Shown piece by piece: positions 1 through 21,534 of a stretch of DNA of 64,000 bases. The position numbers and the translations under genes are program-made. The notes under the pieces are model-generated. The model was not told the DNA's origin and did not search any database. It was given only the letters and a program-made list of their open reading frames with translations. The stretch's first letter is position 1. Each line of letters opens with the position of its first letter. The stretch comes from Acuticoccus mangrovi (lineage in GTDB: Bacteria > Pseudomonadota > Alphaproteobacteria > Rhizobiales > Amorphaceae): positions 186,001 to 250,000 of the forward strand of contig NZ_JAEKJA010000010.1 of assembly GCF_016411865.1 (NCBI RefSeq), read 5' to 3'.

Positions 1-781
1 CATGACGGTCACCGAGAATGTGGGCTACGGCCTGCGGGTCGCGGGCAAGCCCGCCGACTATCGGCAGCGCGTCGCGAGCCTCCTCGAACTCGTCCGCCTC
101 GACGGCAAGGGTCACCGCCTTCCCCGCGAGCTTTCGGGGGGCGAGCAGCAGCGCGTCGCGATCGCCCGCGCGCTCGCCGTCCAACCCGAGCTGCTGCTTC
201 TCGACGAGCCGCTATCCAACCTCGACGCCCGCCTGCGCGCTGACATGCAGGCGGAGCTTCGGCGGATCCAGCGCGAGGCCAACGTCACCACCATCTTCGT
301 GACCCACGACCAGGAGGAGGCGTTCGGGATCTGCGACCGCGTCGCCGTGATGAACCGCGGCCGGATCGAGCAGATCGGCAATGCGCGCGAGATCTACAAG
401 CGGCCGGCGAGCCGCTTCGTCGCCCGCTTCGTGGGGCGGACCAATCATCTGACCGGCGAGGGGACCGGCGACCGAGCGATCCTGGTGGGCGGCCATCGGA
501 TCGCCGTTCCCGAGGCGGTCGCCGCCGGCAAGAGCTACGACCTCTTCGTGCGGCCGGAGGAGGTGATGCTCGCCGAGACGGCGGGGGAGGGCAACTCGCT
601 CCCGGCCAAGGTGGTGTCCATCCAGGAGGCGGGACCGCACCGCTATTATCGGGTGGAGACGGCCATCGGCGTCCTCGAGGCCTGCCGCTCGTCGAAGGCG
701 GACGTGGATTTCGGCTCCGACGACGTCTACGCGAGCTGGCTGCCGGAGGCCTCGACTCTGTTGGACGCGCCCCATGGCTAA
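1..781 (+). CDS. ABC transporter ATP-binding protein, PotA-like (5' partial)
   Basis: ATPase of a spermidine/putrescine/iron-type importer. The reading frame is open to the left edge, so the N-terminus with the Walker A motif is missing; the first ATG in the window (position 2) is probably internal. Counting from it, the signature [15 protein letters not shown] is at about residues 44-58, Walker B LLLLDEPLSNLDA at about 64-76, and the switch histidine is in TTIFVTHDQEEA. A TOBE-like C-terminal domain (about 160-255) follows, as in PotA, FbpC and CysA. The stop overlaps the next permease start by 8 nt, so the genes are translationally coupled. The substrate cannot be read from the ATPase. Confidence 0.93.
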   Translation, partial: MTVTENVGYGLRVAGKPADYRQRVASLLELVRLDGKGHRLPRELSGGEQQRVAIARALAVQPELLLLDEPLSNLDARLRADMQAELRRIQREANVTTIFVTHDQEEAFGICDRVAVMNRGRIEQIGNAREIYKRPASRFVARFVGRTNHLTGEGTGDRAILVGGHRIAVPEAVAAGKSYDLFVRPEEVMLAETAGEGNSLPAKVVSIQEAGPHRYYRVETAIGVLEACRSSKADVDFGSDDVYASWLPEASTLLDAPHG

Positions 782-1616
782 GGCGCACCGCACGTCCCTT
801 CTCATCACCCACGCGGCGATGCTGCTGCCGCTCCTCGTCATCCTGGGCTTCTTCTTCGTCCTGCCGCTCGGCATCGTGGCGACGACGAGCCTCAAGGAGG
901 AGCAGACCTTCCCCTCGCTCGCCCAGTATCTGTCGATCTTCACCGACGGCTTCTATCTGGAGGTGATGGTGCGCACCCTGGTCATCGGCCTGGTGACCAC
1001 CGTCGCGGCGCTCCTCGCCGGCTATCCGGCGGCGCTGCTCCTCGTCTTTTCGAGCAGCCGGTGGCGGCGCGTGTTCCTCTTCATCATCATCTCGCCGCTC
1101 TTCGTCAGCGTGATCGTGCGCACCTACGGGTGGATCGTGCTCCTTGGACCGACGGGGCCCATCGCCTCGCTGTTTCCCCCCGACATCCGCCCGCGGATGC
1201 TGAAGACGGAAGGCGCGATCGTCATCGGCCTGATGCACATCTACATCCCCTACATGGTCCTCTCCATCAACTCGGCGATGGCCAAGATCGACGTCCGTCT
1301 GCTGCGCGCCGCGGCGACGCTGCGGGCGAGCCGATGGCAGATCTTCAAGGACATCATCCTGCCGCTCAGCGCGCCGGGGGTTGTCGCCGGCTCCGCCATC
1401 GTCTTCTCGCTGTCGATGACCGCCTTCAGCACGCCCGTGCTCCTCGGCGGGGCGCGCAACAAGACCATGCCCTTCCTCATCTATCAGGAGAATCTCGTGC
1501 TCGGTGACTGGCAGTCGGGCAGCGCGCTGGCGATCGTGCTCTTGGCGATCACGACCACCGTCCTCGCCGTGGTGACGATCGCGAGCAGCCGCATCGTCAA
1601 CAAGGTGGGCGGCTGA
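774..1616 (+). CDS. ABC transporter permease, PotB-like
   Basis: Inner-membrane permease of 280 residues and about six hydrophobic segments, of the spermidine/putrescine family. The cytoplasmic EAA loop that docks to the ATPase is visible at about residues 178-213 (LRAAATLRASRWQIFKDIILP...G). The ATG at 774 lies inside the 3' end of the ATPase gene, and the next permease starts 3 nt after this stop. Order ATPase-permease-permease is typical of PotABC and of the related iron and phosphonate importers. Confidence 0.93.
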   Translation: MAKAHRTSLLITHAAMLLPLLVILGFFFVLPLGIVATTSLKEEQTFPSLAQYLSIFTDGFYLEVMVRTLVIGLVTTVAALLAGYPAALLLVFSSSRWRRVFLFIIISPLFVSVIVRTYGWIVLLGPTGPIASLFPPDIRPRMLKTEGAIVIGLMHIYIPYMVLSINSAMAKIDVRLLRAAATLRASRWQIFKDIILPLSAPGVVAGSAIVFSLSMTAFSTPVLLGGARNKTMPFLIYQENLVLGDWQSGSALAIVLLAITTTVLAVVTIASSRIVNKVGG

Positions 1617-1618
1617 TC

Positions 1619-2455
1619 ATGGCGCGCCGGAACACTCTCGCCCGGGTCGGGCGTATCTATGGCGTGCTCTTCTCCGCCTTCATGCTGGCGCCGATGGTCG
1701 TGGTGCTCGCCGCTTCGTTCACCGGGGAGGGCTACATCAGCTTTCCGCCGGCGAGCCTCAGCACCCGGTGGTACGTGGAGGTGCTGCAGAACAACACCTT
1801 CATGAACGCGCTGAGCTTCAGCCTGCAGATCGCGGCGATCACCGCCACGGCGTCGGGGCTCGTCGGCGTGCTGAGCGCCGTCGTCCTCGTCAAGCCGAGC
1901 TTTCCGGGGCGCACCTTTCTGGTGTCGCTCGCGATGATGCCGCTCACCTTGCCGCACATCGTCCTCGCCATCGCTCTGCTGCAGCTCTTCGGCAGCCTCG
2001 CCATCCCGAGCGCGCCCTACGCGCTGCTCATGGGGCACATCCTCATTACCGTGCCGTACGTGCTGCGCCTCACCATGACGAGCCTCGGCGGTCTCGATCC
2101 GCGGCTCGAGCTCGCGAGCTTCACGCTCGGCGCGTCGCGCAGCTACACGCTCCGGCACGTCGTGCTGCCGCTCGGGCTGCGCGGCATTCTCGCCGGCATC
2201 CTCTTCGCCTTCCTCCTCTCCTTCGACGAGATCACCATCTCGCTGTTCACAGCGCTCCCCGGCAAGATGACGCTGCCGGCCGAGATCTTCAGCTACGCCT
2301 CGCAGGGCTCAGACCCGGTGATCGCCGCCGCGAGCGGGCTGATGATCATCATCAGCGCCGTCGTTGTGATCATCATCGAATGGTGGTTCGGGCTGCTCCG
2401 CCTGATCCTCGGCGATGAGCCGGCCAAGCGGGGGTCCCGGCCGGCCGGCGAGTAG
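1619..2455 (+). CDS. ABC transporter permease, PotC-like
   Basis: Second inner-membrane permease, 278 residues. An EAA loop is present (LASFTLGASRSYTLRHVVLPLG), followed by the FLLSFDEITISLF stretch characteristic of PotC-type subunits. It presumably forms a heterodimer with the preceding permease. A strong hairpin at 2501-2532 follows, so this is likely the last gene of its transcript. The binding protein is encoded separately about 300 nt downstream, behind its own operator. Confidence 0.93.
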   Translation: MARRNTLARVGRIYGVLFSAFMLAPMVVVLAASFTGEGYISFPPASLSTRWYVEVLQNNTFMNALSFSLQIAAITATASGLVGVLSAVVLVKPSFPGRTFLVSLAMMPLTLPHIVLAIALLQLFGSLAIPSAPYALLMGHILITVPYVLRLTMTSLGGLDPRLELASFTLGASRSYTLRHVVLPLGLRGILAGILFAFLLSFDEITISLFTALPGKMTLPAEIFSYASQGSDPVIAAASGLMIIISAVVVIIIEWWFGLLRLILGDEPAKRGSRPAGE

Positions 2456-2500
2456 ACCGCCCGTATGCGGCCGCCCTCGCGCGGCCACGACGCAAGCCTG

Positions 2501-2532
2501 AACGGCCCGCGGCAGCGCTGTCGCGGGCCGTT
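2501..2532 (+). terminator. Hairpin terminator after the Pot-like permease operon
   Basis: Perfect 11-bp inverted repeat AACGGCCCGCG / CGCGGGCCGTT around a 10-nt loop, with the right arm running into TTT. It lies 46 nt past the stop of the last permease gene and before the operator at 2651. This suggests transcription stops here and restarts for the binding protein. Confidence 0.6.
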
Positions 2533-2650
2533 TGCCGTCGATGCCCGGCGCGACGGCGCGGCGGCATGGCCATCCGGGCCCGCGGATCGGCGCATCGCCG
2601 CCGCACCGTGGAGAGGGGCGAGGAGGCGAGTTTCCCGGCTATTTCTGTAT

Positions 2651-2672
2651 TGATCTCAAAATGTGATCACGA
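2651..2672. promoter_or_regulatory. GntR-type operator, copy A
   Basis: Imperfect palindrome containing ATGTGATCAC, in an AT-rich gap 90 nt upstream of the binding-protein start. It aligns over 22 columns with four other sites in this window (7321, 8292, 9686, 10931) that share the invariant GTGATCA. Inferred to bind the GntR/FCD regulator encoded at 7491-8249. Confidence 0.65.
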
Positions 2673-2761
2673 TATTGTCGCACGCATGGAAGCACCGTGA
2701 CATTCGCCTTGTCACTTCCTCAGCCCCGCGTGGGGCCCTCCAACCAGCCAGGGGACAACGT

Positions 2762-3859
2762 ATGAGACGCTCGGACTTCCCTAAGTTCGCGATGAATCGA
2801 CGGAAAATGGTCGCTCTCGGGCTCGGGGCGCTCGCCAGCCCCGCCGTTCTTTCGCGCCGATCCTGGGCGGATGCCGCCGGCGGCGTTGCCACGGGGCCGC
2901 TCGAGGACGAGCTGATCTTCGCCTGCACCGGCGGCGTCATGCAGAAGATCATGGAAGAGGACATCATCCCCCCGTTCGCCGAAAAGCACGGGGTGAACAT
3001 CATCTACGTGCCGAGCCCGTCGTCGCAGAACCTCGCGAAGCTGCGCACGCAGCGCAGCAGTCCGTCGATCGACGTGATCTGGCTCGCCGGCGCCACCACC
3101 TTTCAGGCGATCGACGACGACGTCCTCGCCGACTACGATCCCGAGCGGATCCCGAACGCGGCGAACGTCTACCCCAACCTGGCGACCGAGTCGAAGGTGC
3201 TTCCCGTCGGCCAGAACGTCATCGGTCTCCTCTACAATGGAGACATCCTGAGCGAGAAGGGGTTCGACGCGCCCACCTCGTGGTGGGACATGTGGGATCC
3301 GAAGTACAAGCAGCACACCGGGATGCTGAACATCAACAGCACCAGCACGATCGGAACGGTGTCGCTGATCGCCAAGATCCTGTCGGGCGATCCCTACGAC
3401 TTCGACGCGGCCTTCGCGAAGTTCGCCGAGCTCATGCCGAACGTCTACGACTTCTTCAGCGCGTCGGGCGAGATGGACGCCCTCGCCCAGGAGGGGCTGC
3501 TGTGGGTGTGGTCCCACGCCGCCGGCCGGGCGATGTTCCACCGGAAATCCGGCTTCCCGGTGCGCTTCGTGGCGCCGAAAGAGGGGGCCGTCGGCTATTC
3601 GAGCTCCGTCGCCGTCGTGAAGAACGGGCCGCATCCCAACGTGGCGCACGCGTGGGTGAACTACCTCCTCTCGACCGACGTGCAGGAGAAGATCGCGCTG
3701 AAGGCCGGCTATGCGCCGGTGGTGCCGGGCGTCACGATCCCCGCCGACGTCAAGGAGTTCTTCCCCGACCTCGATACGATCTTCTTCCCGGACTACCGAA
3801 AGCTGACCGCGGTGCTTCCTGAACTCGTGGATCGGTGGAATCGGGAAGTCGAGCGGTGA
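2762..3859 (+). CDS. ABC transporter substrate-binding protein, PotD-like, Tat-type signal
   Basis: Periplasmic binding protein of the PotD/FbpA extracellular solute-binding family (365 residues), presumably serving the importer just upstream. The frame is open further 5', but the ATG at 2762 gives a sensible signal: an arginine pair at residues 13-14 (RRKMVALGLGALAS) before a hydrophobic stretch, resembling a Tat leader ending near RSWADA. The mature part has the motifs typical of this fold, including PTSWWDMWDPKYKQ and a YSSSVAVVKNGPH segment near the C-terminus. It has its own operator (2651) and is followed by a strong hairpin (3906-3937). Ligand unknown; a polyamine or other small nitrogenous compound is possible. 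Confidence 0.9.
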   Translation: MRRSDFPKFAMNRRKMVALGLGALASPAVLSRRSWADAAGGVATGPLEDELIFACTGGVMQKIMEEDIIPPFAEKHGVNIIYVPSPSSQNLAKLRTQRSSPSIDVIWLAGATTFQAIDDDVLADYDPERIPNAANVYPNLATESKVLPVGQNVIGLLYNGDILSEKGFDAPTSWWDMWDPKYKQHTGMLNINSTSTIGTVSLIAKILSGDPYDFDAAFAKFAELMPNVYDFFSASGEMDALAQEGLLWVWSHAAGRAMFHRKSGFPVRFVAPKEGAVGYSSSVAVVKNGPHPNVAHAWVNYLLSTDVQEKIALKAGYAPVVPGVTIPADVKEFFPDLDTIFFPDYRKLTAVLPELVDRWNREVER

Positions 3860-3905
3860 GCTTCTAATCATCGCCGACAACGGGAGCACCGACCGCTCCC
3901 GCGTC

Positions 3906-3937
3906 GCGTGCCGCCGGACCCCCGCCCGGCGGCACGC
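3906..3937 (+). terminator. Strong GC hairpin after the binding-protein gene
   Basis: Perfect 12-bp inverted repeat (GCGTGCCGCCGG / CCGGCGGCACGC) with an 8-nt loop, 46 nt downstream of the stop of the binding protein. There is no clear T-run, so this may be a Rho-assisted stop or an mRNA 3'-end stabiliser. The rest of the 288-nt gap (3860-4147) turns more AT-rich towards 4148 and probably holds the promoter of the flavin reductase operon. None of the GntR-type sites was seen in it. Confidence 0.5.
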
Positions 3938-4147
3938 TTATGGGGACGCGTGGGCAATCATCATCGACCACGATCGCGGGCGCGCAGCATTCGAGCGAGT
4001 TGCGACCGTATGTGACAAGTCGTTGAAAAGTGACCATCGTGCGGAAAGCGTTCGACGTTCGTTTTCGCGTATGTTGATTGCCACTATCTATGTTGACCGG
4101 CGCCGGCTCGCCGCGGTTTTGTTGAGCGAAACAAACCAAAGTGTCAC

Positions 4148-4672
4148 ATGATGTCTGTCCAGCCCGTCTCCGCTTCCGTCGCGGACCCCGACCCGTTACC
4201 GCCGGAACGGTTCCGCACCATCGCCGCCGCGTGGCCGAGCGGGGTGGCCGTCGTCACCACCGTCGACCGGCACGGCCGGCCCAAGGGCCTCACGATGACC
4301 GCCGTCACGGCGCTGTCGCTGGAGCCGCAGCAGTTTCTGATCTGCGTCGACGACGGCTCCTCGACGCTCGCGCCACTCCTCGATGCCGGGCGCTTCTGCA
4401 TCAACTTTCTCGGCAAGGGGCAGGAGGACGTGGCGCGCCTCTTCGCCTCCAAGCGCGAGGACAAGTTCGGCGCACTCGGCTGGTCGCTCGACGCGATCGG
4501 CATGCCGGCGATCCACGGCGCCGTCGCGCAGGCCGGCTGCGACGTCGTCGCCGTCCATGACGGCGGGGACCACCGCATCATCATCGGCGGCCTGCGCGCG
4601 GCGGCCATCAGCGGCGGCGCGCCGCTTCTCTACCATTCGGGAAGATTTCTCGACGTGAACCAGGGGCAGTAA
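4148..4672 (+). CDS. Flavin reductase-like protein
   Basis: NAD(P)H:FMN oxidoreductase of the flavin-reductase-like family (RutF/HpaC/NtaB type), 174 residues, the usual length. The conserved region RHGRPKGLTMTAVTALSLEP followed by a CINFL block marks the split-barrel FMN-binding domain. It ends 4 nt before the FMN-dependent monooxygenase start, so the two form a two-component system in which this protein supplies reduced flavin. Two ATG codons occur in tandem (4148 and 4151) and the ribosome-binding site is weak, so the exact start is uncertain. Confidence 0.92.
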   Translation: MMSVQPVSASVADPDPLPPERFRTIAAAWPSGVAVVTTVDRHGRPKGLTMTAVTALSLEPQQFLICVDDGSSTLAPLLDAGRFCINFLGKGQEDVARLFASKREDKFGALGWSLDAIGMPAIHGAVAQAGCDVVAVHDGGDHRIIIGGLRAAAISGGAPLLYHSGRFLDVNQGQ

Positions 4673-4676
4673 GACA

Positions 4677-6035
4677 ATGGACGTCACCCGAAAAATGCGT
4701 CTCGGCCTGTCGATGCGAGGCGTCGGATATCATCCGAGCGCGTGGCTCGATCCGGCCGTTCCGGCGGACGGGGCGATCAACTTCCCCTACTATCTGGAGG
4801 TCGCCCAGAAGGCCGAATCCGGGCTGCTCGATCTGGTATTCCTCGCCGATCAGAGCGCCATCACCGTCTCCGACGAGCCGCGCGGGGCGTTCGGCCGCAC
4901 CCCGGTGGGGGCGGAGTTCGAGCCGATCACGCTCCTCTCCGCGCTCAGCCAGTTCACCACCCACATCGGCCTCGTGGCGACGGCCTCCACCACGCTTCAC
5001 CAGCCCTTTCAGCTGGCGCGTCAGTTCGGCTCGCTCGACCATCTGAGCGGGGGGCGCGCGGGGTGGAACGTCGTCACCTCCTCACGCGACAGCGAGGCGC
5101 AGAACTTCAGCGAGGAGAGGATCCTCCCCAAGGATCAGCGCTACCGGCGGGCGCGCGAGGCCCTCGATGTCGCCTTCGGCCTCTGGCAGAGCTGGGAGGA
5201 GGACGCGTTCGTACGCGACCGGGCGCGCGGCGTGTTCGTGGAGCCCGCCAAGATGCACCCGATCGATCATGTCGGCGAGTTCTTCCGCGTGAAGGGGCCG
5301 CTGAACCAGCCGCCCACGCCGCAGGGCCGGCCGGTGATCGTGCAGGCCGGCGCCTCGGCCGACGGCATGGACTTCGCCGCGCGCTACGCCGAGGTGGTCT
5401 ATGCGGTGCAGAACCGCTTGGCGGACGCCCAGACCTTCTACGCCGCGATGAAGGCGCGGGTCGCCGCCAGCGGCCGCAACCCCGACGACGTGAAGATCAT
5501 GCCCGGCATCCTCCCCGTCATCGGCCAGACCCACGCCGAGGCGGAGGATCGCTACCGCGCGATGCAGAACGAGATCGACCCGCTCGTGGGCCTCGAGAAG
5601 CTCGTCCGCTTCTTCGGCGACCTCAGCGACCGCGACCTCGACGGGCCGCCGCCGGAGCTGCGGACGGACATGCCGGTGATCAGCCGCGGCGAGCTTCTTC
5701 TCAACCTCGCGCGGGAGAACGGCTGGTCGATCCGTCAGCTCTACCAGTACACCTCGATCGGTAACGCCCACCACGTCGTCGTGGGCACGCCGTCCGAGAT
5801 CGTCGACGTCATGGAGACGTGGTTCACCGAGGGCGCGGCCGACGGCTTCAACGTGCTCCCGGCGAAGCAGCCGGCCGACATCCACGGCTTCGTCGACCAC
5901 ATCGTGCCGGAGCTGCAGAACCGCGGCCTCTTCCGCACCGAATATGAGGGCAAGACGTTGCGCGGCAATCTCGGCCTTCCAGCGGTCGCGTCGCGCCACA
6001 AGCACCCGCAGGAGATGGCCGCGCAGCCAGCCTGA
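4677..6035 (+). CDS. LLM-class flavin-dependent monooxygenase, NtaA/SnaA/DszA family
   Basis: Flavin-dependent monooxygenase of the luciferase-like superfamily, 452 residues, matching the length of NtaA (nitrilotriacetate), EmoA (EDTA), SnaA and DszA rather than the shorter RutA. Family features seen: an N-terminal strand, LVFLADQSA, TLHQPFQLARQFGSLDHLSGGR followed by AGWNVVTS, and PVIVQAGASADGMDFAARYAE. It should use FMNH2 from the adjacent reductase and O2, probably to oxidise a C-N, N or S centre of the substrate. Family members of this type cleave N-carboxymethyl groups, which fits the nearby opine-dehydrogenase and alpha-hydroxy-acid dehydrogenase genes, but the real substrate is unknown. 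Confidence 0.92.
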   Translation: MDVTRKMRLGLSMRGVGYHPSAWLDPAVPADGAINFPYYLEVAQKAESGLLDLVFLADQSAITVSDEPRGAFGRTPVGAEFEPITLLSALSQFTTHIGLVATASTTLHQPFQLARQFGSLDHLSGGRAGWNVVTSSRDSEAQNFSEERILPKDQRYRRAREALDVAFGLWQSWEEDAFVRDRARGVFVEPAKMHPIDHVGEFFRVKGPLNQPPTPQGRPVIVQAGASADGMDFAARYAEVVYAVQNRLADAQTFYAAMKARVAASGRNPDDVKIMPGILPVIGQTHAEAEDRYRAMQNEIDPLVGLEKLVRFFGDLSDRDLDGPPPELRTDMPVISRGELLLNLARENGWSIRQLYQYTSIGNAHHVVVGTPSEIVDVMETWFTEGAADGFNVLPAKQPADIHGFVDHIVPELQNRGLFRTEYEGKTLRGNLGLPAVASRHKHPQEMAAQPA

Positions 6036-6050
6036 CCCGCGCTTTCCGTT

Positions 6051-6083
6051 GCCGAGGGGCCGCCGTTCGGCGGAACCCTCGGC
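6051..6083. terminator. Bidirectional hairpin between convergent genes
   Basis: Inverted repeat GCCGAGGG / CCCTCGGC enclosing a second GC-rich inner hairpin, located between the stop of the monooxygenase (6035, plus) and the stop of the opine-dehydrogenase-like gene (6156, minus). It probably ends transcription from both sides. No T-run is seen. Confidence 0.45.
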
Positions 6084-6155
6084 GGTGTGGACGAGTCCCA
6101 CGAATGCGTTGGAATGGAGCCGGCGCGGGCGACGAGGGCGCCTGCGCCGGCGCTC

Positions 6156-7247
6156 CTATGCGCCGCGCACCTTGCGAAGCAGGCCGTCCCGGTCGAGGCC
6201 GGCGATGCCCATCGCCTCCGCCGTGCGGCCGTGGACGCGGTAGTCGACGCCGACGGCGGCCTCGGCGAGCGTCAGCAGCGAGCGGGCGACCGGCGTCTCG
6301 ACGCCCGCGATCTCCGCGAGGGCGAGGAAGGGGAGGACGCCGTGCCCGAAGTCCTCTCGATAGTAGCGGTGGGTCAGCGAATCGGGCGCCTTGATGTTCT
6401 TGTTGGCGCCGCCGCCGGCGACCGCCGCGGCGTAGTCCGTCGGGTCGGCGTCGGGCTCGACCGTCCCGATGAGCTTCATCTCCTCGATGAGGTGGGGCAT
6501 CTCGTGGCCGAACGCCCGTGCGACGCGGCAGCGCTCCTCGTCGAGCGCCTGCATGGTTCGAGCGACGCCGGGCGTCATCGCGTCGACGTAGAAGGTGAAG
6601 TCGCCCTGGCGTGCCTCCACCCAGGCCGCGGCGAGGACCGAGCCGGGGGGGTGCAGCACCAGATTGGCGTTCGCGAGCGAGGAGCAGAGAACGTCCGGCA
6701 CGGCGGTCGCGCCGGGAAACAGCGCCACCGCGGCCTCGAGAGCGGCATCGCCGCCGGGGAGGGCGGCGGCGCGCACGCTCTTGGCGCGGCAGGTGACGGT
6801 CACCGTCTCCGGCGCGTACTTGCGCGCCACGTAGGTGAGCGTCGAGAGCTCGGCGACGGGCGGCGCCTGCCGCCCCGTCCGCGCGAAGGCGGTCGCGAAC
6901 TCCAGCGCCCCGCCGGTGTGGCCCGGATTGAGGACCACCGGCTTGTCCGACGGCCAGTCCGCCTCGGCGAGGAGCTTTGCGACCGGGGCGTGCGAGAATG
7001 TCGGCAGGCACACGACGGCGACGTCGGCGGAGCGGATCGCCTCGGCGATGCTGCCCGTGATCATCGGCAGCTCGACGAAGCCCTCGCCGATCACGCCGCT
7101 GAAGCGCACCCCGCTCTGGGCCTTGAGCGGCGCCAGCGTCGCCTCCGAGCGGTTCCAGAGAGCGACGTCGTGGCCGGCGGTGGAGAGCTCGGCGACGGCG
7201 GCGATGCCACCCGCCCCGGCGCCCAGGACCGCAACGCTCATGTTCAT
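6156..7247 (-). CDS. NAD/NADP octopine/nopaline (opine) dehydrogenase family protein
   Basis: NAD(P)-dependent oxidoreductase of the opine dehydrogenase family (363 residues from the chosen start). The Rossmann motif VLGAGAGGIAAVAEL sits directly at the N-terminus, which is why the ATG at 7247 is preferred over in-frame ATGs up to 7340 that run into the operator at 7321. The C-terminal domain has the family block LTHRYYREDFGHGVLPFLALAE. Opine dehydrogenases reductively condense an amino acid with a 2-oxo acid or run the reverse oxidation; in a catabolic cluster the oxidative direction is plausible. The ribosome-binding site is weak for every candidate start. Confidence 0.87.
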   Translation of the reverse strand: MNMSVAVLGAGAGGIAAVAELSTAGHDVALWNRSEATLAPLKAQSGVRFSGVIGEGFVELPMITGSIAEAIRSADVAVVCLPTFSHAPVAKLLAEADWPSDKPVVLNPGHTGGALEFATAFARTGRQAPPVAELSTLTYVARKYAPETVTVTCRAKSVRAAALPGGDAALEAAVALFPGATAVPDVLCSSLANANLVLHPPGSVLAAAWVEARQGDFTFYVDAMTPGVARTMQALDEERCRVARAFGHEMPHLIEEMKLIGTVEPDADPTDYAAAVAGGGANKNIKAPDSLTHRYYREDFGHGVLPFLALAEIAGVETPVARSLLTLAEAAVGVDYRVHGRTAEAMGIAGLDRDGLLRKVRGA

Positions 7248-7320
7248 CGGAACGAGGTGCCCGGCCAGAGTCTGACCTGGAGGGGAAAGCCGCATGGGGT
7301 CCATCGTGCTCAGAAGTAAT

Positions 7321-7342
7321 GAATCACATTTTGTGATCACAA
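7321..7342. promoter_or_regulatory. GntR-type operator, copy B (perfect palindrome)
   Basis: Contains the perfect palindrome ATCACA-TTT-TGTGAT, the best of the five copies, and runs into GTGATCACAA. It lies about 75 nt upstream of the opine-dehydrogenase-like start (minus strand) and downstream of the gntR stop. It defines the core of the shared motif. Confidence 0.7.
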
Positions 7343-7490
7343 TTGCCGACTGTCAAGCATACGAGACCCGGCGGAGCCGGCGGTCGGCCGGCATTCGCTG
7401 TGGGGCTTGCGGGCTGGATGGGGGCGTGGATCGGCGCGGCTCGAAGCGGGGGCGTCGGCCCGGCGGCGTGGGGTCTCTCGGCGGCGAGGC

Positions 7491-8249
7491 TCAGAGGCCG
7501 CGGTCGAGGCGGAAGGCGTTGGAGAGCGACGCGAAGGGGCCCGTTTCCGGCTCCCTCTGGGCCTCGGCGATCAGATAGGCGCCGGTCTTCATGATGTCGT
7601 CGACCATCGCCGTCTCCGCGGCGCCGGTGTCCTTGGCGCGGAACGCGTCGAGGAGGCGCAGGTGCATCGAGGTGTCCCACAGGTTGCGGGGCGAGTTCAT
7701 CGAGAAATACATCGTCGGCCCGCAGCGCAGCCACAACGACTCGATGAGCGGCATCAGGATATCGGAGTTCGCCGCGCGATAGATGGCGAAGTGGAACTCC
7801 TTGTTGGCGATCAGCACCTGGCCCATGTCGTTCTGCGCATGGGCGGCGAGAAGGCGATCGTTGATCTCGCCGAGCTCTTCGATCAGCTCGTCGGTGACCC
7901 TCTCGCATGCGACGCGGGCTGCCATGCCCTCGATGAGGGTGCGCACCTCGAAGAGCTCGATGAGACCCCTCGCGGAGAGCTTCGGCACGCGGACGGTGCG
8001 GTTCGGCAGCTCTTCCAGCGCATGGGCCGCCACGAGCCGGCTCACGCTCTCGCGCACGGGCATCAGGCTGGTGTCGAGGTTCGCCGCGATCTTGCGCAGG
8101 CTGAGCACCTGGCCGGGCAGGAAGAAGCCGGACATCAAGCCGTATTGGAGGCTCGCCAGCACCTTGTCGTGCATCGTCACCCGACCGCCTTTGCCGGGAG
8201 TGGAGGAGGCACCTTTAGGTTGCTCGTCTTCCTTGTCGTTCTTGTCCAT
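7491..8249 (-). CDS. GntR family transcriptional regulator, FCD domain
   Basis: Transcription factor of about 252 residues. An N-terminal winged helix-turn-helix (LSLRKIAANLDTSLMPVRES region) is followed by an all-helical FCD ligand-binding domain (FEVRTLIEGMAARVACERV onward), as in FadR/VanR-type regulators. The longest frame begins at 8300, but that ATG falls inside the operator at 8292-8313, so the ATG at 8249 (MDKNDKEDE) is chosen. It lies among five copies of one palindrome, one of them at its own promoter, which points to an autoregulated local regulator. Effector unknown, probably the substrate or an intermediate of the cluster. Confidence 0.92.
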   Translation of the reverse strand: MDKNDKEDEQPKGASSTPGKGGRVTMHDKVLASLQYGLMSGFFLPGQVLSLRKIAANLDTSLMPVRESVSRLVAAHALEELPNRTVRVPKLSARGLIELFEVRTLIEGMAARVACERVTDELIEELGEINDRLLAAHAQNDMGQVLIANKEFHFAIYRAANSDILMPLIESLWLRCGPTMYFSMNSPRNLWDTSMHLRLLDAFRAKDTGAAETAMVDDIMKTGAYLIAEAQREPETGPFASLSNAFRLDRGL

Positions 8250-8291
8250 CTTGGCTCTCGAGACCGTTGCGGTGGTGGCGTCACCGTAGTG

Positions 8292-8313
8292 TGATGACAT
8301 TACGTGATCAACT
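8292..8313. promoter_or_regulatory. GntR-type operator, copy C (gntR promoter)
   Basis: Operator copy with TGATGACA and GTGATCA half-sites, 43 nt upstream of the chosen gntR start. It overlaps the upstream in-frame ATG at 8300, which argues against that start. The position suggests autoregulation of the GntR gene. Confidence 0.6.
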
Positions 8314-8426
8314 TTGGGTCCTAGCAGGCGCGCCGTGCTCCGCCCAGCCTCGCGACGGCTCGGGTCGCATCCGCGAACAACTTTCCCGATACCGAGTGTA
8401 CACGATCGACCCGCCGCGATGGGGCG

Positions 8427-9635
8427 TCAAAGGTCGCTCTGCGGGCCGGTGTAGCGGGCGCGCGGGCGGATCGGGCGGTCGCTCGCCTGCTGCTCCAATG
8501 CGTGCGAGATCCAGCCGACGCAGCGGCCGAGGAGAAACAGCGTGATGGCCGCGTCGGGCGGGAGGGAGAGCGTCCGCCGCATCGCGACGAGCGCGATGTT
8601 GAGGTTCGGGTGCTTGCCGAGATGCCCCGCCATGGCGTCGACGACGGCGAGGCAAGGGGAGCCCGATGGCAGGCGCTCCAGGATCGCGCGGGCCCGCGGG
8701 TCACCGTCCTCGTGGAGCTGCAGACCGAAGATGGGCGGCGCCTCGCTCCGTTCCAGCCGCACCCGGAGCGCGCCGGCGTCATCTTCGGTCTCGGCCTCCT
8801 CGAACACGCGTTCGATCAGCGCCATCTGCCCGGCGTGGAACGGCGAGCCGTAGGCGGCGAGGCCGGCGCACACGCAGGCGGCCAGCGAGGCGCCGGTGGA
8901 GGCGACGACGCGCACGCCGAAGGTCGCCGTGTTGAGCTCGTAGTCGGCGGAGAGGGAGAGGGCGAGGCGGCAGAGATCGGCGGCGTCGGCCCCGAGCCCC
9001 CAGTGCTCGCTCAATTGCATGTGGACGGGCCGCGCGTCCGCCCGCCGCCCCAAGACGACCGCGAGCATCGTGCGAAGCACCGCGGCCGCGTCCGCGAGAT
9101 CGGATTGCCGCGCATGCGGATGATCGGCCGGGGCGTTCGCCGCGAGCCGCGCCATCGCCACGAGACAGCGTCGCTCGACCCGGCCCTCGCGCAGCGCGCC
9201 GACGCGCGGGGCGGGCTCGGGCCCGTGTGGCGCGGCGAAGATGTCGGCGGTGCAGTCCCACAGCAGCGCCGCCGTCTCCTCGAGCGTCGCCCCGGCGGAC
9301 CACGCCACGATGTCGTGCCCCCGATAGAGGATGCGCCGCTCGTCGATCGCGGAGATCTCCGACGACATCACCGGCAGGCCGAAGTCGAGCGCCGAGATGG
9401 CGGCCTCGTTGGGGCGCTTCGCGAGCCGCTTGCGGCGCACGAGCGCCTCGAGGTCCTTCAGGTTGTAGGTGCGCTTGCGCGGGTCGGCCGGATCCGTGCG
9501 CGTGCGCACCAGGCCACGGCTCACATAGGCGTAGAGCGTGGCGCTGCGCACGCCGAGAATCTCGATGGCGAGCGCCGACGACACGTACGGCTCGCGCGCG
9601 GGGAGGGGAGGCTCGCGCGGGGGGACAGGCGCCAT
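8427..9635 (-). CDS. Helix-turn-helix/citrate-synthase-like fusion protein, catalytic residues replaced
   Basis: About 402 residues from ATG 9635 (an in-frame ATG at 9680 is possible). The N-terminal 75 residues form a MerR-like DNA-binding helix-turn-helix (ALAIEILGVRSATLYAYVSRGLV region). The rest aligns with citrate synthase. The conserved HADHELN is SADYELN here. The active-site histidine in FGHRVYK is leucine (FGLQLHE, about residue 305), and the aspartate in NVDFALA is asparagine (NLNIALV, about 346). One histidine (GSPFHAGQ) remains. It therefore looks unable to make citrate by the usual mechanism and may instead sense an acyl-CoA or 2-oxo acid. It shares a divergent, operator-bearing promoter with the FMN dehydrogenase. 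Confidence 0.85.
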   Translation of the reverse strand: MAPVPPREPPLPAREPYVSSALAIEILGVRSATLYAYVSRGLVRTRTDPADPRKRTYNLKDLEALVRRKRLAKRPNEAAISALDFGLPVMSSEISAIDERRILYRGHDIVAWSAGATLEETAALLWDCTADIFAAPHGPEPAPRVGALREGRVERRCLVAMARLAANAPADHPHARQSDLADAAAVLRTMLAVVLGRRADARPVHMQLSEHWGLGADAADLCRLALSLSADYELNTATFGVRVVASTGASLAACVCAGLAAYGSPFHAGQMALIERVFEEAETEDDAGALRVRLERSEAPPIFGLQLHEDGDPRARAILERLPSGSPCLAVVDAMAGHLGKHPNLNIALVAMRRTLSLPPDAAITLFLLGRCVGWISHALEQQASDRPIRPRARYTGPQSDL

Positions 9636-9685
9636 CGCATGCGGATCCACATCAACGCGTGTGCCGGATTGACACCCCATAAGTG

Positions 9686-9707
9686 TGATGACAATTTGTG
9701 ATCAAAT
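9686..9707. promoter_or_regulatory. GntR-type operator, copy D (divergent promoter)
   Basis: Operator copy TGATGACA...TTTGTGATCA placed between the divergent HTH/citrate-synthase-like gene (minus) and the alpha-hydroxy-acid dehydrogenase gene (plus), so it could control both. It overlaps the ATG at 9685, which supports the downstream TTG start for the dehydrogenase. Confidence 0.65.
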
Positions 9708-9729
9708 CAAGCGTAGAAAGCAGGTTGCC

Positions 9730-10869
9730 TTGTCCGCCAGAGCGCCCGTCAACGTGGACGACTATCGATCGATGGCGCGCCGCGTCCTCCCGCGCATGCT
9801 CTACGACTTCGTCGACGGCGGCGCCCTCGATGAGCGGACCTCGGCGCGCAATCGCGAGGGCTTCGCGTCGTGGTGGCTGCGGGGCCGGAGCTTTCGCTCG
9901 TCGAGCGAGATCGACACCAGCCTCACCCTGCTCGGCACGCCGTGCTCGATGCCGGTGCTCACCGCGCCGACCGGGGCGAGCGGGCTCCTGTGGCCGCACG
10001 GCGAGGAGGCGACGGCCGCCGCGGCCGCCTCGCGCGGCATCATCATGGAGGTGAGCGCCGGCTCGCTCGCTCCGATGGAGGAGATCGCCGCCGCGAGCAG
10101 CGGTCCCAAGTGGCTGCAGCTCTTTCTCTACAAGGATCGCGGCTTGACGCTCGAGTTCCTCCAGCGGGCGAAGGCCGCCGGCTACACCGCCGTCTGCGTC
10201 ACGACCGACTGCCCGGTCCACGGTCGGCGGGAGAGGGACGAGCGCAACGGCTTCACCATCAACCAGACGCTCGGGCTGACGACGATCCTCGATGCGGCCT
10301 TCCATTGGCGCTGGTGGCGGCGCATGGCCGGCAGCGGCCGCTTCTCGATGCGCAATTTCGAGGGGAGGGCGACGGGCGGCATGAGCGACATGGCCGCCTA
10401 CATCGCGAGCGTGCTCGATCCCTCGGTCGGCTGGGACGATCTCTCCTGGCTGCGCACCAACTGGGACGGTCCGCTGGTGGTGAAGGGCATCTGCGATCCC
10501 GACGACGCCGACGAGGCGATCGCGCGCGGTGCCGACGCCATCCAGATCTCCAACCACGGCGGCCGTCAGCTCGACGGCACGCTCGCCAGCATCGACGCCC
10601 TGCCGGGCGTCGCCGAGCGCGTCGCCGGCCGCGTCCCCGTCCTGCTCGACGGTGGCGTGCGGCGAGGCACCGACGTCATGAAGGCTCTCGCGCTCGGGGC
10701 GACCGCCTGCGTCATCGGTCGCAGCCACCTCTGGGGCCTCGCCGTGAACGGCCAGGCCGGCGTTGAGGCCGTCCTCGACATCATCCGCGCCGAGCTCGTC
10801 AACGCCATGACGATCGGCGGCTGGGCCTCGCTCGACGCGCTCGACCACACCGCCGTCCGGCGCCTCTAG
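9730..10869 (+). CDS. FMN-dependent alpha-hydroxy-acid dehydrogenase/oxidase
   Basis: Member of the glycolate oxidase / L-lactate dehydrogenase (LldD) / mandelate dehydrogenase family, about 379 residues, a TIM barrel binding FMN. Diagnostic motifs: MLYDFVDGGA near the N-terminus, TAPTGASGLLWPHGE, the active-site SNHGGRQLDG with catalytic His and Arg, and the phosphate-binding LLDGGVRRGTDVMKALALGA. It oxidises a 2-hydroxy acid to a 2-oxo acid. A TTG start at 9730 is chosen because AGCAGG lies just upstream and the longer frame starts inside the operator. In this cluster it might oxidise glycolate or another hydroxy acid released from the substrate. Confidence 0.92.
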   Translation: MSARAPVNVDDYRSMARRVLPRMLYDFVDGGALDERTSARNREGFASWWLRGRSFRSSSEIDTSLTLLGTPCSMPVLTAPTGASGLLWPHGEEATAAAAASRGIIMEVSAGSLAPMEEIAAASSGPKWLQLFLYKDRGLTLEFLQRAKAAGYTAVCVTTDCPVHGRRERDERNGFTINQTLGLTTILDAAFHWRWWRRMAGSGRFSMRNFEGRATGGMSDMAAYIASVLDPSVGWDDLSWLRTNWDGPLVVKGICDPDDADEAIARGADAIQISNHGGRQLDGTLASIDALPGVAERVAGRVPVLLDGGVRRGTDVMKALALGATACVIGRSHLWGLAVNGQAGVEAVLDIIRAELVNAMTIGGWASLDALDHTAVRRL

Positions 10870-10930
10870 CCCACTTTCCGCCTCGACGATGCCGCGGGTC
10901 GCTCGCGGCATCTTGACGTCCAATCATATG

Positions 10931-10952
10931 TCATCACAATAAGTGATCACAT
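10931..10952. promoter_or_regulatory. GntR-type operator, copy E
   Basis: Operator copy TCATCACAATAAGTGATCAC, ending about 18 nt before the start of the enolase-superfamily gene. It probably controls the three-gene unit 10971-14377 by blocking transcription initiation. Confidence 0.65.
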
Positions 10953-10970: not shown

Positions 10971-12131
10971 ATGGTCCAAATCGCATCCATCGAAACAATG
11001 CTGGTCCGCCTCCCCACCCGGCGGGTGCACAAATGGACCGGACTGACCGAGCCCATCGGCCAGTATCTCCTGGTGAAGATGACCGGCAGCGACGGTTCGG
11101 TGGGCTGGGGCGAGGCGCCTGCGCTGAAGGATTGGGGCGGCGAGTTCGGCCGCTACTTCGGCGAGAGTGCCGCGGTCGTGGAGCTCGTCATCGAGCGCTA
11201 TCTCGCGCCGACCATCGAGGGTCTCGAGATCGCGCGCCCGGCGGAGCTCCACCGGCGGATGGACGCCATGGTGAAGGGCTATCCCTACGCCAAGGCGGCG
11301 CTCGACTTCGCCTACTACGACCTGACCGGAAAGGTGCTCGGACTGCCGGTGCACGCGCTCCTCGGTGGGCTCCTGCGCGAGAACGTCGCCGTCACCCACT
11401 CCATCGGCCTTCTCGGCGTCGACGAGGCCGTCTCGGAGGTGAAGCAGGTGGTGGCGGACGGCATCCGCACCATCAAGATCAAGGTCGGCGTCGATCCCGA
11501 CCGCGACGTCGCCATCGTCACCGCGATCCGCGAGGCCGTCGGCCCCGACGTCAATCTCTGCGTCGACGCCAACGAGGGCTACAAGACGCCCGGCCAGGCG
11601 ATCCAGACCATTCGGCGCATCGAAGAGTGCGGCCTCATCTACGTCGAGCAGCCGGTGATGGGGATCGAGCGGATCGCCCGCGTCGCCGAAGCGATCGACA
11701 TTCCCGTGATGGCCGACGAGTCGGCGTGGAACGCCCACGACGTGATCCAGATCGTGGCGCAGAAGGCCGCCCAGATCGTCTCGATCTACACGACGAAGCC
11801 CGGCGGCCTTTATAAGGCCATGCAGGTCTCGGCCGTGTGCGAGGCGGCCGGCATCATCTGCAACGTCAACGGCTCCGTGGAGACCGGCGTCGGCAACCTC
11901 GCCAACGTGCATCTCGCCGCCGCGGCGCCCGCCGCCGTCTTGTCGAACGTCATTCCCGTGTCGGTGCCGGCCGAGCACCTCAACGGGCGGATCGGCGGCA
12001 TCTACTACGCCGACGACCTTCTCGCCGAGCCGATGACGTTCGCCGACGGCGGGGTGCGCGTTCCCACCGGCCCCGGCATGGGGATCGCGGTGGACGAGGC
12101 CAAGGTCGCGAAATACCGGATCAATCTCTGA
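10971..12131 (+). CDS. Enolase-superfamily enzyme (muconate-lactonising / mandelate-racemase-like)
   Basis: 386 residues with the two-domain enolase fold. The barrel shows the residues of the muconate-lactonising subgroup: KIK at 169-171, metal ligands Asp199 (CVDAN), Glu226 (VEQP) and Asp249 (MADES), and Lys276 (TTKPGG) as the opposite base. Members abstract an alpha-proton next to a carboxylate, giving cycloisomerisation, dehydration, epimerisation or racemisation; N-succinylamino-acid and dipeptide epimerases share the double-lysine layout. It heads an operon with the M24-like protein (10 nt downstream) and the oxidoreductase. An epimerase of an N-substituted amino acid would fit the opine theme, but this is inference. 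Confidence 0.92.
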   Translation: MVQIASIETMLVRLPTRRVHKWTGLTEPIGQYLLVKMTGSDGSVGWGEAPALKDWGGEFGRYFGESAAVVELVIERYLAPTIEGLEIARPAELHRRMDAMVKGYPYAKAALDFAYYDLTGKVLGLPVHALLGGLLRENVAVTHSIGLLGVDEAVSEVKQVVADGIRTIKIKVGVDPDRDVAIVTAIREAVGPDVNLCVDANEGYKTPGQAIQTIRRIEECGLIYVEQPVMGIERIARVAEAIDIPVMADESAWNAHDVIQIVAQKAAQIVSIYTTKPGGLYKAMQVSAVCEAAGIICNVNGSVETGVGNLANVHLAAAAPAAVLSNVIPVSVPAEHLNGRIGGIYYADDLLAEPMTFADGGVRVPTGPGMGIAVDEAKVAKYRINL

Positions 12132-12141
12132 GGAGCCGCCG

Positions 12142-13278
12142 ATGCGCACGCCAATTGTGGAGCGGATGACGGGGCTCCTGGCCCGCAAGGGGCTCGACGC
12201 GATCGTCACGAGCTCGCCGGAGAATTTCGCCTATCTCACGGGCTTCGTCGTGCCGACGCAGCCGTTGATCCGGCACCGCCACGCGATGGCGATCGTGACC
12301 GCGTCGGGCGAAGAGGCCGTGTTCGCGGTGGACATGGAGGAGAGCACCGTTCGCGGGAAGCTGCCCGAGACGCCGCTCTCGGTCTGGCGCGAGTTCCACG
12401 ACGACCCGATGGAGGTGCTCGCCGAGACGCTCAAGGGGCTGGGCCTTGCCGCCGCATCGATCGGCCTCGAGTTCGATTATCTCCCGGCCGGCGACTACGC
12501 CCGCCTCGTGGGGTTCATGCCCGACGCGCGCTTCGTGCCGGTGGAGAAGGACATCGCGCTGCTGCGCCAGATCAAGACGCCGGACGAGGTCGCCCTCATC
12601 CACCGCCTCGCGCGCATCGCCGACGAGGCGATCTGCGACAGCTTCGCCGCGGTGAAGGCCGGCGACACCGAAATGGACATCGCCGCGGTGCTGACGCGGC
12701 GGATCTACGAGCTCGGCGCCGAGGACTTCAAGCTGCTCATCGTGGCGACCGGCGAGCGCAGCCAGCTGCCCAATGTCGGTCCCTCGCTGCGTATCCTGCA
12801 GCGGGGCGACGTCTGCCGGGTCGAGATCTTCGCCGTCATCGCGGGCTATCAGGCGGGCGTCTGCCGCACCGCCTACGTGCAGGAGCCGCCGCCGATGGCG
12901 GAGGAGATCTGGAAGCTGATGGTCGAGTGCAAGTACGCGATCCTCGACCAGATCCGCCCCGGCGCGAGCTGCCTCGCCGTCTACAACGACTTCATCCGCC
13001 GCCTGGCGACGATGAACCTGCCGCCCATCTCGTTCGTCGGCCATGGCATCGGCCTGCACCTTCACGAGGACCCTTATATCGGGGCGACGCCGATCCTCGG
13101 CTCGCCGGCCGGCGATGCCACGATCGAGGCGGACATGGTGCTCGGCTTCGAGCCGCTCTGCTACCGCACCGGCTACGGCTTCGGCGTCCAGAACAAGGAC
13201 GTGCTGCACGTCACCGCGAACGGCTCCGTCCTCCTGTCGGACAAGGCCGATACCGACACCATGATCCGCATCGCCTGA
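12142..13278 (+). CDS. M24/creatinase-family protein lacking canonical metal ligands
   Basis: 378 residues with the N-terminal creatinase domain and C-terminal pita-bread domain of the Xaa-Pro peptidase/creatinase family. The five M24 metal ligands are largely missing: the first Asp is Glu228 (VEIFAVIAGYQ), the second is replaced (AGVCRT, Gly239), and the last Glu is Lys352 (GVQNKDVLHV). His301 (GHGIGLHLHED) and Glu337 (LGFEPLCY) remain. This resembles creatinase, which uses the fold for C-N hydrolysis without metal. It is preceded by a good ribosome-binding site (GAGGAG). Likely a hydrolase of a small C-N bonded compound rather than a peptidase. Confidence 0.9.
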   Translation: MRTPIVERMTGLLARKGLDAIVTSSPENFAYLTGFVVPTQPLIRHRHAMAIVTASGEEAVFAVDMEESTVRGKLPETPLSVWREFHDDPMEVLAETLKGLGLAAASIGLEFDYLPAGDYARLVGFMPDARFVPVEKDIALLRQIKTPDEVALIHRLARIADEAICDSFAAVKAGDTEMDIAAVLTRRIYELGAEDFKLLIVATGERSQLPNVGPSLRILQRGDVCRVEIFAVIAGYQAGVCRTAYVQEPPPMAEEIWKLMVECKYAILDQIRPGASCLAVYNDFIRRLATMNLPPISFVGHGIGLHLHEDPYIGATPILGSPAGDATIEADMVLGFEPLCYRTGYGFGVQNKDVLHVTANGSVLLSDKADTDTMIRIA

Positions 13279-13291
13279 GGGGCTAAGCGCC

Positions 13292-14377
13292 ATGACACAG
13301 CAGCCACCGGCCTGCGACATCCTCCTTCTCGGCACCGGCTTCTTCGCCGAGGTGATGCTGACGGACCTTTCCGCCACCGCGACGACACCGCTGCGCGTGG
13401 TGGTGGGCGGGCGCAACGCGGCGCGCATGGGATGGCTCGTCGACGCCTGCCGCTCGCGCGCCGTCATCCACGACACGCCGATCCGCTTCGACTGGCGGGA
13501 GGTCGACTTCACGTCGGCAGAGACGCTCGCCGAGGCGATCGGTGCGCTGCGGCCGAAGGTGGTGGTGCAGGCGGCGTCGCTCCAGTCGCCGTGGAAGGTG
13601 GACATCGGCGACAGCGCGTGGAGCCACCTCGTGGCCCGTGCCGGCTTCGGCACCACCATCGCCTTCAACGCGATGCTCGCCTGGCGGGCGGCGGAAGCGG
13701 TCCGCCTCCTCGGCGATCGCTGCCATTTCGTCAATACCTGCTACCCGGACGGGGTGAACCCACTCCTCGAGGCGGCGGGCCTTCCGATCACCACCGGTGT
13801 CGGCAATATCGGGATCTTCCCGGGCCTCATCGGTGGCCGTCTCCCCGCCGAAGACCTTGCGGACTTCCGCGTGCTCGCCCACCACCGCCATCTGGTCGAG
13901 TGGCGCAAGCCGGGGCCGGAGCGGGCGGGCGCGCCGGTGCGCGCCTGGTGTGGAGCAAAGGAGCTTGAGGGCATCAACGCCATGACCCTCGACATCCAGC
14001 TTCCCTACCGCGATCTCAATCTGATCTCGGCGGCGAGCGCCGTGCCGGTGCTCCTCGCTCTCGCCGGGGAGGGGGCGCGGCGCTGCCACGTGCCAGGCCC
14101 CTATGGCCTCCCGGGCGGCTATCCGGCGACGGTCGACGAGACGGGCCTCCGTCTCGACCTGCCGCCGGGGCTTTCCGAAGCGGAAGCGATCGCCTGGAAC
14201 CGGCAGTTCGAGGAGGCCGACGGCGTGTCGGTGCGCGACGGGCGCGTCACCTACTCGGCGAACGCGCGGGCGGCCCTCGCCGAGCACAGCGTCGAGATCG
14301 CCGAGGGCTTCGCCGCCGCCGACCTCGAGGACGCCTTTGCCGCGGTCACGGCGCTGCGGGAACGGCTCGGCGGCTGA
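13292..14377 (+). CDS. Saccharopine-dehydrogenase-like NAD(P)-binding protein
   Basis: 361 residues with an N-terminal Rossmann fold (ILLLGTGFFAEVML, then VVVGGRNAARMGWLVDACR) and the block PKVVVQAASLQSPW, which recall saccharopine dehydrogenase / homospermidine-synthase-like proteins. The remainder is not strongly diagnostic. These enzymes make or break secondary amines between an amino acid and a 2-oxo acid or amine, which again fits an opine-like pathway. It is the last gene of the enolase operon, 13 nt after the M24 gene, and converges on the CoxS-CoxG fusion gene. Exact reaction unknown. Confidence 0.75.
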   Translation: MTQQPPACDILLLGTGFFAEVMLTDLSATATTPLRVVVGGRNAARMGWLVDACRSRAVIHDTPIRFDWREVDFTSAETLAEAIGALRPKVVVQAASLQSPWKVDIGDSAWSHLVARAGFGTTIAFNAMLAWRAAEAVRLLGDRCHFVNTCYPDGVNPLLEAAGLPITTGVGNIGIFPGLIGGRLPAEDLADFRVLAHHRHLVEWRKPGPERAGAPVRAWCGAKELEGINAMTLDIQLPYRDLNLISAASAVPVLLALAGEGARRCHVPGPYGLPGGYPATVDETGLRLDLPPGLSEAEAIAWNRQFEEADGVSVRDGRVTYSANARAALAEHSVEIAEGFAAADLEDAFAAVTALRERLGG

Positions 14378-18694: not shown

Positions 18695-18882
18695 TGCGCC
18701 GCGTCCTCGCGGGCTCGTGCCCTGTAGACAGTCATGGTCCTAAACGCTTGTCCAGGCTGAAGAAGCTTTCGAAGTGGTTCTAACGTCGCACAGATAGGAT
18801 CTTCAAGGAAGGCGGTCCCTCCGGAAGGCCTCGCCGTGCGGCGGCGATCTTAGGGGCTCGGCCGGTCGATGGGAGAGGGGCG

Positions 18883-19629: not shown

Positions 19630-19714
19630 GAAGGATCTCCGGAAGGCTCGGGCCGTCGGGGTCGGGTATCGGGGGGGCGCGGCGGGGCGCCGCCGCCCCG
19701 CCCGCCGGACGGCG

Positions 19715-20653: not shown

Positions 20654-20657
20654 CCGA

Positions 20658-21518: not shown

Positions 21519-21534
21519 GGGAATTCCCTCGCCG

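Follow-up and report, generated by a model that had tools for sequence, protein, structure and literature searches.

The 64,000-nucleotide stretch of Acuticoccus mangrovi DNA described here (the window, G000:C2:186001-250000 of the 5.46-Mb assembly) contains five copies of a palindromic site, and two more lie to the left of it on C2. From sequence comparison we propose that all seven are very probably operators of the FCD-type GntR regulator encoded at 7491-8249, and that they bind together a local catabolic regulon comprising the transporter, opine-dehydrogenase-like, enolase-M24, amidohydrolase, MmgE/PrpD, flavin mononucleotide (FMN)-dependent dehydrogenase and helix-turn-helix (HTH)-citrate-synthase-like genes together with gntR itself. 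The sites are confined to linked genes and are conserved with them in relatives, as a regulon of one factor should be, with the exceptions listed below. A local GntR regulon had been put forward in a preliminary description of this DNA on the strength of five sites; it is borne out by operators kept before the same kinds of genes in other bacteria, and with seven sites it is larger than first drawn.

The five window sites (operators A to E, Table 1) align without gaps at the positions originally reported, and GTGATCA is indeed invariant in all five. The core had been written as ATnACA-n3-TGTGAT with copy B perfect; copy B does fit it, but so does copy D without a mismatch, and only B is symmetric over the core. 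In the window ATNACANNNTGTGAT, with up to two mismatches allowed, has 11 strand-matches where 3.1 would be expected; none of 100 shuffles reaches this number (maximum 10), and the five sites, each matched from either strand, account for ten of the 11. With a symmetric 19-mer, TGATCACANNNTGTGATCA (arms TGATCACA-N3-TGTGATCA, 16 scored positions), only these five sites match at up to four mismatches, each with one or two, compared with 0.6 matches per simulated sequence (mean of 5). Two upstream in-frame starts had been doubted as falling inside sites: 8300 does lie inside operator C, while 9685 is at the edge of operator D and not inside it, and the doubt on both is upheld. The ATG of gntR at 8249 has a GAGAG a few bases upstream; start 9685 would lie upstream of a transcript begun from the TTGACA at 9669-9674, and TTG 9730 is our guess for the start of the FMN-dehydrogenase gene.

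A whole-genome scan with a weight matrix trained on the window sites alone (a sequence-only model), a check named at the outset, finds no crowd of equal matches. At E <= 10 there are 12 strand-matches, 11 of them in seven places of one 14.4-kb stretch of C2 and one at C23:240600. The five training sites score 17.8-20.0 bits. The first new site, C2:182530 (window-relative -3470; 14.5 bits, E 0.24), lies between the end of what we take, from its translation, to be guaA and the amidohydrolase gene, and has GTGATGA in place of GTGATCA in its right arm. The second, C2:185469 (window-relative -531; 12.2 bits, E 1.42), lies in the gap between the leftward MmgE/PrpD and rightward ABC ATPase genes. As C23:240600, outside the cluster, reaches 10.3 bits (E 5.8), a narrower margin to the two new sites than to the training sites, it is their position and symmetry, rather than their scores, that chiefly set these two apart. 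With up to two mismatches allowed, the symmetric 19-mer is matched seven times in the genome, always between C2:182530 and C2:196949 (14.4 kb). A looser 17-letter pattern has 21 strand-matches, of which 14 are the seven sites, including all eight with no or one mismatch; the other seven have two mismatches and are scattered in the genome. Operator A (2640-2690) and the upstream divergent operator (L009 17455-17500) have in common longer flanks, TATTGATC...GTGATCACGATATnGTCG, beyond those of the other sites.

Comparison with relatives, likewise suggested at the outset, shows the operator preceding gntR, enolase, M24, opine-dehydrogenase or transporter genes at loci with these partners in reach. 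Among 24 scanned loci with this GntR or a homologue, the operator (up to three mismatches) is found in 12 and is absent from 12. A search of 61 genomes, our own included and with seven of the same genus and two of the same family among them, gave no close GntR orthologue in those nine, and apart from the gene itself nothing above 41% identity in the 61; a homologue at E <= 1e-20 is present in 27 of the 61, and these served later for the comparison of single boxes. A contig scan with the GntR protein gave just two distant matches (23% and 25% identity, in Bacillus and a Clostridia metagenome-assembled genome), which were not used. Plasmid records hold closer relatives: with a cut-off of E <= 1e-20 the regulator is matched in 301 of them, most closely (about 48% identity) in Aminobacter, Shinella and Phyllobacterium, and eight of the 301 were retrieved. 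All six plasmid loci from these three genera contain the operator, gntR, and opine-dehydrogenase and amidohydrolase genes; the ABC transporter is present in five, pAA03 (L046) having transposition genes there behind the still-present site, and the whole enolase-M24 pair in four, L046 being without it and the L071 stretch ending within M24. On pAA01 of Aminobacter aminovorans the operators stand before the enolase, opine-dehydrogenase and binding-protein genes and in the gap between gntR and a cytosine-deaminase gene, and identity to its proteins is 64% for the opine dehydrogenase, 68% for the enolase, 68% for M24 and 48% for GntR. On pAA03 two copies of TniQ/TniB/Mu-type transposition genes (309-3664 and 18616-21971), with the same protein accessions on both sides, bound the cluster, which suggests that it moved as a composite element.

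At E <= 1e-42 the regulator is matched in 2 of 385 genomes of a class sample and 6 of 397 of an order sample, our own included in both. At four of the six loci that the two samples together give in other genomes (G572, G724, G608 and G460) the operator stands upstream both of gntR and of partner genes. One more match in G724, on a separate contig (L075), precedes a transporter operon 59-82% identical to that of Aminobacter, so that here the operator travels with its target, the site being kept although the transporter sits on another contig. Upstream of its gntR, Marinibacterium (41% identity) shows a site with three mismatches. Nine further homologue loci (34-41% identity, including our own C9 paralogue) have no match at up to three mismatches; four of the nine have a four-mismatch match, that of G009 about 190 bp upstream of the regulator. 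Counting against the proposal, the paired site is absent from the remaining two of the six loci (G600 and G237) and from Microvirga, each of which has one TGATCA upstream. In a tree of 23 regulators (the second Aminobacter copy omitted) the 11 that bear operators form one side of a branch with support 82/85, or 99/97 without G460.

The palindrome noted in these sites is present, but its axis may not be that of one dimer, two adjacent TGTGATCACA boxes being likelier. We favour, by a modest degree of confidence, an operator made of a tandem pair of TGTGATCACA GntR boxes 13 bp apart over a single wide palindrome. Column counts find conserved flanks outside as well as inside the 19-mer, with an outer TG before the left hexamer in 23 of 38 sites and an outer CA after the right hexamer in 17 of 38 (the sites are not independent and the count has no control), and by virtue of these flanks each hexamer tends toward a palindrome of its own, TGTGATCACA. 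We also compared the 350 bp upstream of the regulator at 34 usable homologue loci (35 examined, L024 dropped) with 700 control windows. A TGATCA is found at 26 of the 34 loci versus 66 of the 700 windows, and TGTGATCACA with up to one mismatch at 21 versus 22. Once four pair-bearing loci are removed, 17 of 30 homologues have a TGTGATCACA-type box before their own gene. A lone exact TGTGATCACA lies about 101 nt ahead of the match to the C9 paralogue of our genome, and the genome holds three exact copies, two in the cluster and this one. G460 offers a pair of perfect CTGTGATCACAG boxes at the 13-bp distance. A third box (at least five of six matches) stands beside five of the 38 sites, namely four enolase promoters of related plasmids, at +26, and the opine-dehydrogenase site of L055, at -13; the argument from third boxes is a modest one, four of the five cases being the same promoter in related plasmids.

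The alternative, as originally drawn, is that all 19-22 nt form one wide palindrome, ATnACA-n3-TGTGAT, bound by one dimer. This is the less probable arrangement, although it keeps a substantial share of our belief: the inner arms (CACA and TGTG) are richer in information than the outer flanks, and among the seven sites of our genome the outer TG is found in four, the outer CA in two, and both TGATCA hexamers are exact in one (C2:185469). It fits poorly with the lone TGTGATCACA box, with no partner at 13 bp, that homologous regulators often have, with the perfect pair of G460, and with the outer TG and CA and the third boxes; moreover, about its axis AC and GT stand in the reverse order to that of the GntR rule NyGTNxACNy (PMC4494728).

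Several further observations weigh against the tandem pair. The box is absent in 13 of the 30 homologues, and the 700 control windows were mostly coding, not intergenic. TGATCA pairs at spacing 7 are not enriched genome-wide, with one of 25 exact pairs at spacings 0-30 (again C2:185469). Regulators that have the paired site and those that lack it are nearly alike in the recognition helix; Ala occupies position 75 in 10 of the 11 operator-bearing regulators and in none of the 12 others, which may reflect kinship only. Notwithstanding these points, we tentatively suggest, at rather less than an even chance, that this clade of regulators exchanged a single TGTGATCACA box for two obligatory ones, or sometimes three, spaced at a fixed 13-bp pitch, with a dimer-of-dimers contact setting the spacing, and that it controls an undescribed pathway with metal-free M24, muconate-cycloisomerase-like and opine-dehydrogenase-like enzymes. 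If so, the clade could, within one cell, tell its own sites from the single boxes of paralogues such as that on C9, whose recognition helix is almost the same, and the contrast between single- and double-box paralogues would bear on how GntR regulators with near-identical recognition helices avoid each other's sites.

The placing of promoters relative to the operator hints at how it might act. Among 42 site-gene pairs at nine loci (related plasmids included; the operator-bearing L046, L068 and L070 left out), 24 have an exact TTGACA starting 16-19 nt ahead of the operator; all 24 belong to the 33 pairs that face enzyme or transporter genes (the HTH-citrate-synthase-like gene counted there), and none to the nine that face gntR. 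A -35 hexamer at this distance puts the -10 region at +4 to +7 of the operator, and an operator lying over the -10 region suggests repression. The simplest and likeliest mechanism would then be repression by occlusion with relief by a ligand: two dimers or a tetramer would occupy each two-box operator, the bound GntR would cover the -10 and shut RNA polymerase out, and a ligand of the FCD domain, perhaps the substrate or an early intermediate, would release it. That GntR instead activates, as reported for AkgR, which is termed a transcriptional activator (PMC6365646), we regard as unlikely, as at recognisable promoters the operator covers the -10 and is not upstream of the -35. Repression by occlusion is itself weakened on several counts. 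The phased promoters match the -10 consensus at just 2-4 of 6 positions, and the phasing count was made with no shuffle control and with related plasmids among its pairs. Our own cluster has a phased TTGACA or TTGACG in only three of nine site-gene pairs (the enolase TTGACG has one mismatch and is hence outside the 24 exact pairs), and the phased hexamer is absent at its amidohydrolase, binding-protein, ABC ATPase, MmgE, gntR and HTH-citrate-synthase genes.

Could another regulator bind these sites? The HTH-citrate-synthase-like protein (8427-9680) is the obvious candidate, being encoded in the cluster, with weak N-terminal MerR and HTH_17 matches, below cut-off, and with catalytic residues seemingly lost. 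In its citrate-synthase domain His is replaced by Leu and Asp by Asn relative to 3o8j, presumably two of the three catalytic residues, and the protein is possibly a ligand-sensing regulator and not an enzyme. As the binder of the operators, however, it or any other regulator is very improbable: no homologue is found (tblastn, E 1e-8) at eight loci, five of them with the operator, nor is there a blastp match among the 19 Aminobacter proteins compared. These eight loci share gntR, but were picked by it. The CRP site, TGTGA-N6-TCACA, was also set aside, as the arms run the opposite way here.

That the sites are a coincidence of chance or of a repetitive element can be practically dismissed: the 19-mer at up to two mismatches does match at least once in 132 of the 397 genomes of the order (our own included), mostly once or twice each, but the seven of our genome are the most of any (next are five each in G734 and G769), all lie within 14.4 kb and before genes, and the sites are conserved elsewhere before the same kinds of genes. 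Ten stretches round other 19-mer matches were inspected, from a small part of the 132 genomes. One, L075, is the relocated transporter; the other nine (L072-L074 and L076-L081) have no GntR homologue at tblastn E 1e-8, and their matches are thus chance or belong to another regulator. One of the nine, L072 (G769:C130), has three TGATCA hexamers at 13-bp pitch at 7461-7492, and tblastn finds no GntR homologue in its 15-kb stretch.

By its domains the regulator is filed as an FCD-GntR protein, with an N-terminal GntR winged HTH (PF00392, 36.2 bits, cut-off 27) and a C-terminal FCD domain (PF07729, 86.0 bits, cut-off 24.3). FCD proteins belong to the FadR subfamily, and the VanR group of FCD regulators has a six-helix effector domain. 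The closest solved relative by sequence is McbR (4p9f, E 1.3e-26), which is only a pointer to the VanR group. In the alignment of the regulators with and without the paired site, the NKEFH and SMH stretches of the FCD domain are kept, and at what would be the third His of the metal site the GntR of the window seems to have Asp (MVDDI versus IVHDI in Aminobacter). The box here is GT-GATC-AC, with GT and AC 4 nt apart and not at the 2-3 nt of the FadR subfamily, and so the operator is not of typical FadR type.

Elsewhere in the family, a GT-AC spacing of 4 nt is given for the HutC subfamily and one of 2-3 nt for FadR, and many GntR sites are described as having extra boxes 7-12 nt from their centre (PMC4494728); those boxes are weaker, whereas here two boxes of similar strength stand at a fixed 13-bp pitch. 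McbR/YncC of E. coli, a VanR-type FCD protein, differs in its reported preference for numerous AT-rich sites that contain an ATATAT motif (PMC13343897). Atu1419 of Agrobacterium fabrum is an FCD protein of the VanR group with a metal site of Asn/Asp and three His; it resembles our proposal in that a dimer binds each 10-bp palindrome and a tetramer can hold two, and differs in its box, ATGTATACAT (GT-N2-AC), and in having two boxes 190 bp apart joined by a DNA loop, compared with GT-N4-AC and 13 bp here (PMC7797058). NanR of E. coli is likewise a GntR-type repressor that places three dimers on a short-repeat array, although its repeats are GGTATA, whereas the boxes in the window are each palindromic (PMC8012715). 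The unit box itself has been published before for related GntR proteins: a conserved palindrome GTGATCAC lies upstream of PS417_07240, a GntR-like gene of Pseudomonas simiae, and also occurs among the sites of AkgR of Rhodobacter sphaeroides, which is 32% identical to PS417_07240 (PMC6365646). These two systems share the unit box with ours and differ in having a single palindrome, in AkgR being described as an activator and in their target genes; the likeness is one of box. The searches of open-access literature turned up neither the fixed box pair nor this regulon nor its pathway, and no paper that names together three of four of the cluster's genes; the available excerpts of PMC6134199 and PMC11323563 give no operator for this kind of regulator.

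The enzymes give weak leads to the substrate from their nearest matches. The enolase-superfamily protein is by similarity of the muconate-cycloisomerase/epimerase kind, and the M24 protein has matches to prolidases and to creatinase. For the MmgE/PrpD protein the nearest match is iminodisuccinate epimerase, and for the opine-dehydrogenase-like protein it is 1bg6. Compared with prolidase, the M24 protein has D to E, D to G and E to N at three positions, the same three being replaced in eight of nine family members aligned; we take these positions to be the metal ligands of prolidase, and their replacement presumably is as in creatinase-like enzymes. The luciferase-like protein is nearest to nitrilotriacetate monooxygenase, but the flavin-reductase/luciferase-like pair (4148-6035), although inside the regulon stretch, has no operator in the symmetric 19-mer scan. 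For the pathway we suggest, speculatively and with rather low confidence, that it breaks down an N-substituted amino acid of the opine or iminocarboxylate type. Linking one regulator to one operator and a defined gene set nevertheless offers a handle on an uncharacterised pathway, which is also found on Aminobacter, Shinella and Phyllobacterium plasmids.

Table 1. Operators, promoter-like hexamers and genes of the cluster (window coordinates; hexamers are consensus matches only)
Feature	Position	Strand	Remarks
Operator A	2651..2669	.	TGATCTCAAAATGTGATCA; precedes binding-protein gene; flanks like those of C2:185469
Operator B	7321..7339	.	precedes opine-dehydrogenase-like gene; right box exact TGTGATCACA at 7332-7341
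Operator C	8292..8310	.	precedes gntR
Operator D	9686..9704	.	divergent gap between HTH-citrate-synthase-like and FMN-dehydrogenase genes
Operator E	10931..10949	.	precedes enolase-M24 operon
TTGACA, -35-like, opine-dehydrogenase promoter	7351..7356	-	-10-like CAAAAT (4/6) at 7328-7333 inside operator B
TTGACA, -35-like, FMN-dehydrogenase promoter	9669..9674	+	17 nt before operator D; poor -10 (2/6)
TTGACG, -35-like, enolase promoter	10913..10918	+	-10-like CACAAT (4/6) at 10935-10940 inside operator E
ABC transporter ATPase	2..781	+	gene starts left of window (L009 17585), behind upstream divergent site
Two PotB/PotC-like ABC permeases	774..2455	+	
Solute-binding protein	2762..3859	+	behind operator A
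Flavin reductase and NtaA/DmoA-family (luciferase-like) monooxygenase pair	4148-6035	+	inside regulon stretch
Opine-dehydrogenase-like protein	6156..7241	-	behind operator B
FCD-type GntR regulator	7491..8249	-	252 aa from ATG 8249; Pfam GntR and FCD above cut-off; proposed binder of all sites
HTH-like N-terminus fused to degenerate citrate-synthase domain	8427..9680	-	behind operator D
FMN-dependent dehydrogenase (lactate-dehydrogenase-like)	9730..10869	+	behind operator D; start codon uncertain
Enolase-superfamily (muconate-cycloisomerase-like) protein	10971..12131	+	behind operator E
M24 (creatinase/prolidase-type) protein	12142..13278	+	presumed enolase operon
Third gene of presumed enolase operon	13292..14377	+	

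For the third gene of the presumed enolase operon, neither Pfam nor NCBIfam gives a match at E 0.001. Adjoining the regulon on the minus strand, at 14431-18694, are a gene for a 2Fe-2S/CoxG fusion protein and two open reading frames that resemble, by translation, the FAD and molybdenum subunits of a xanthine-oxidase-type enzyme.

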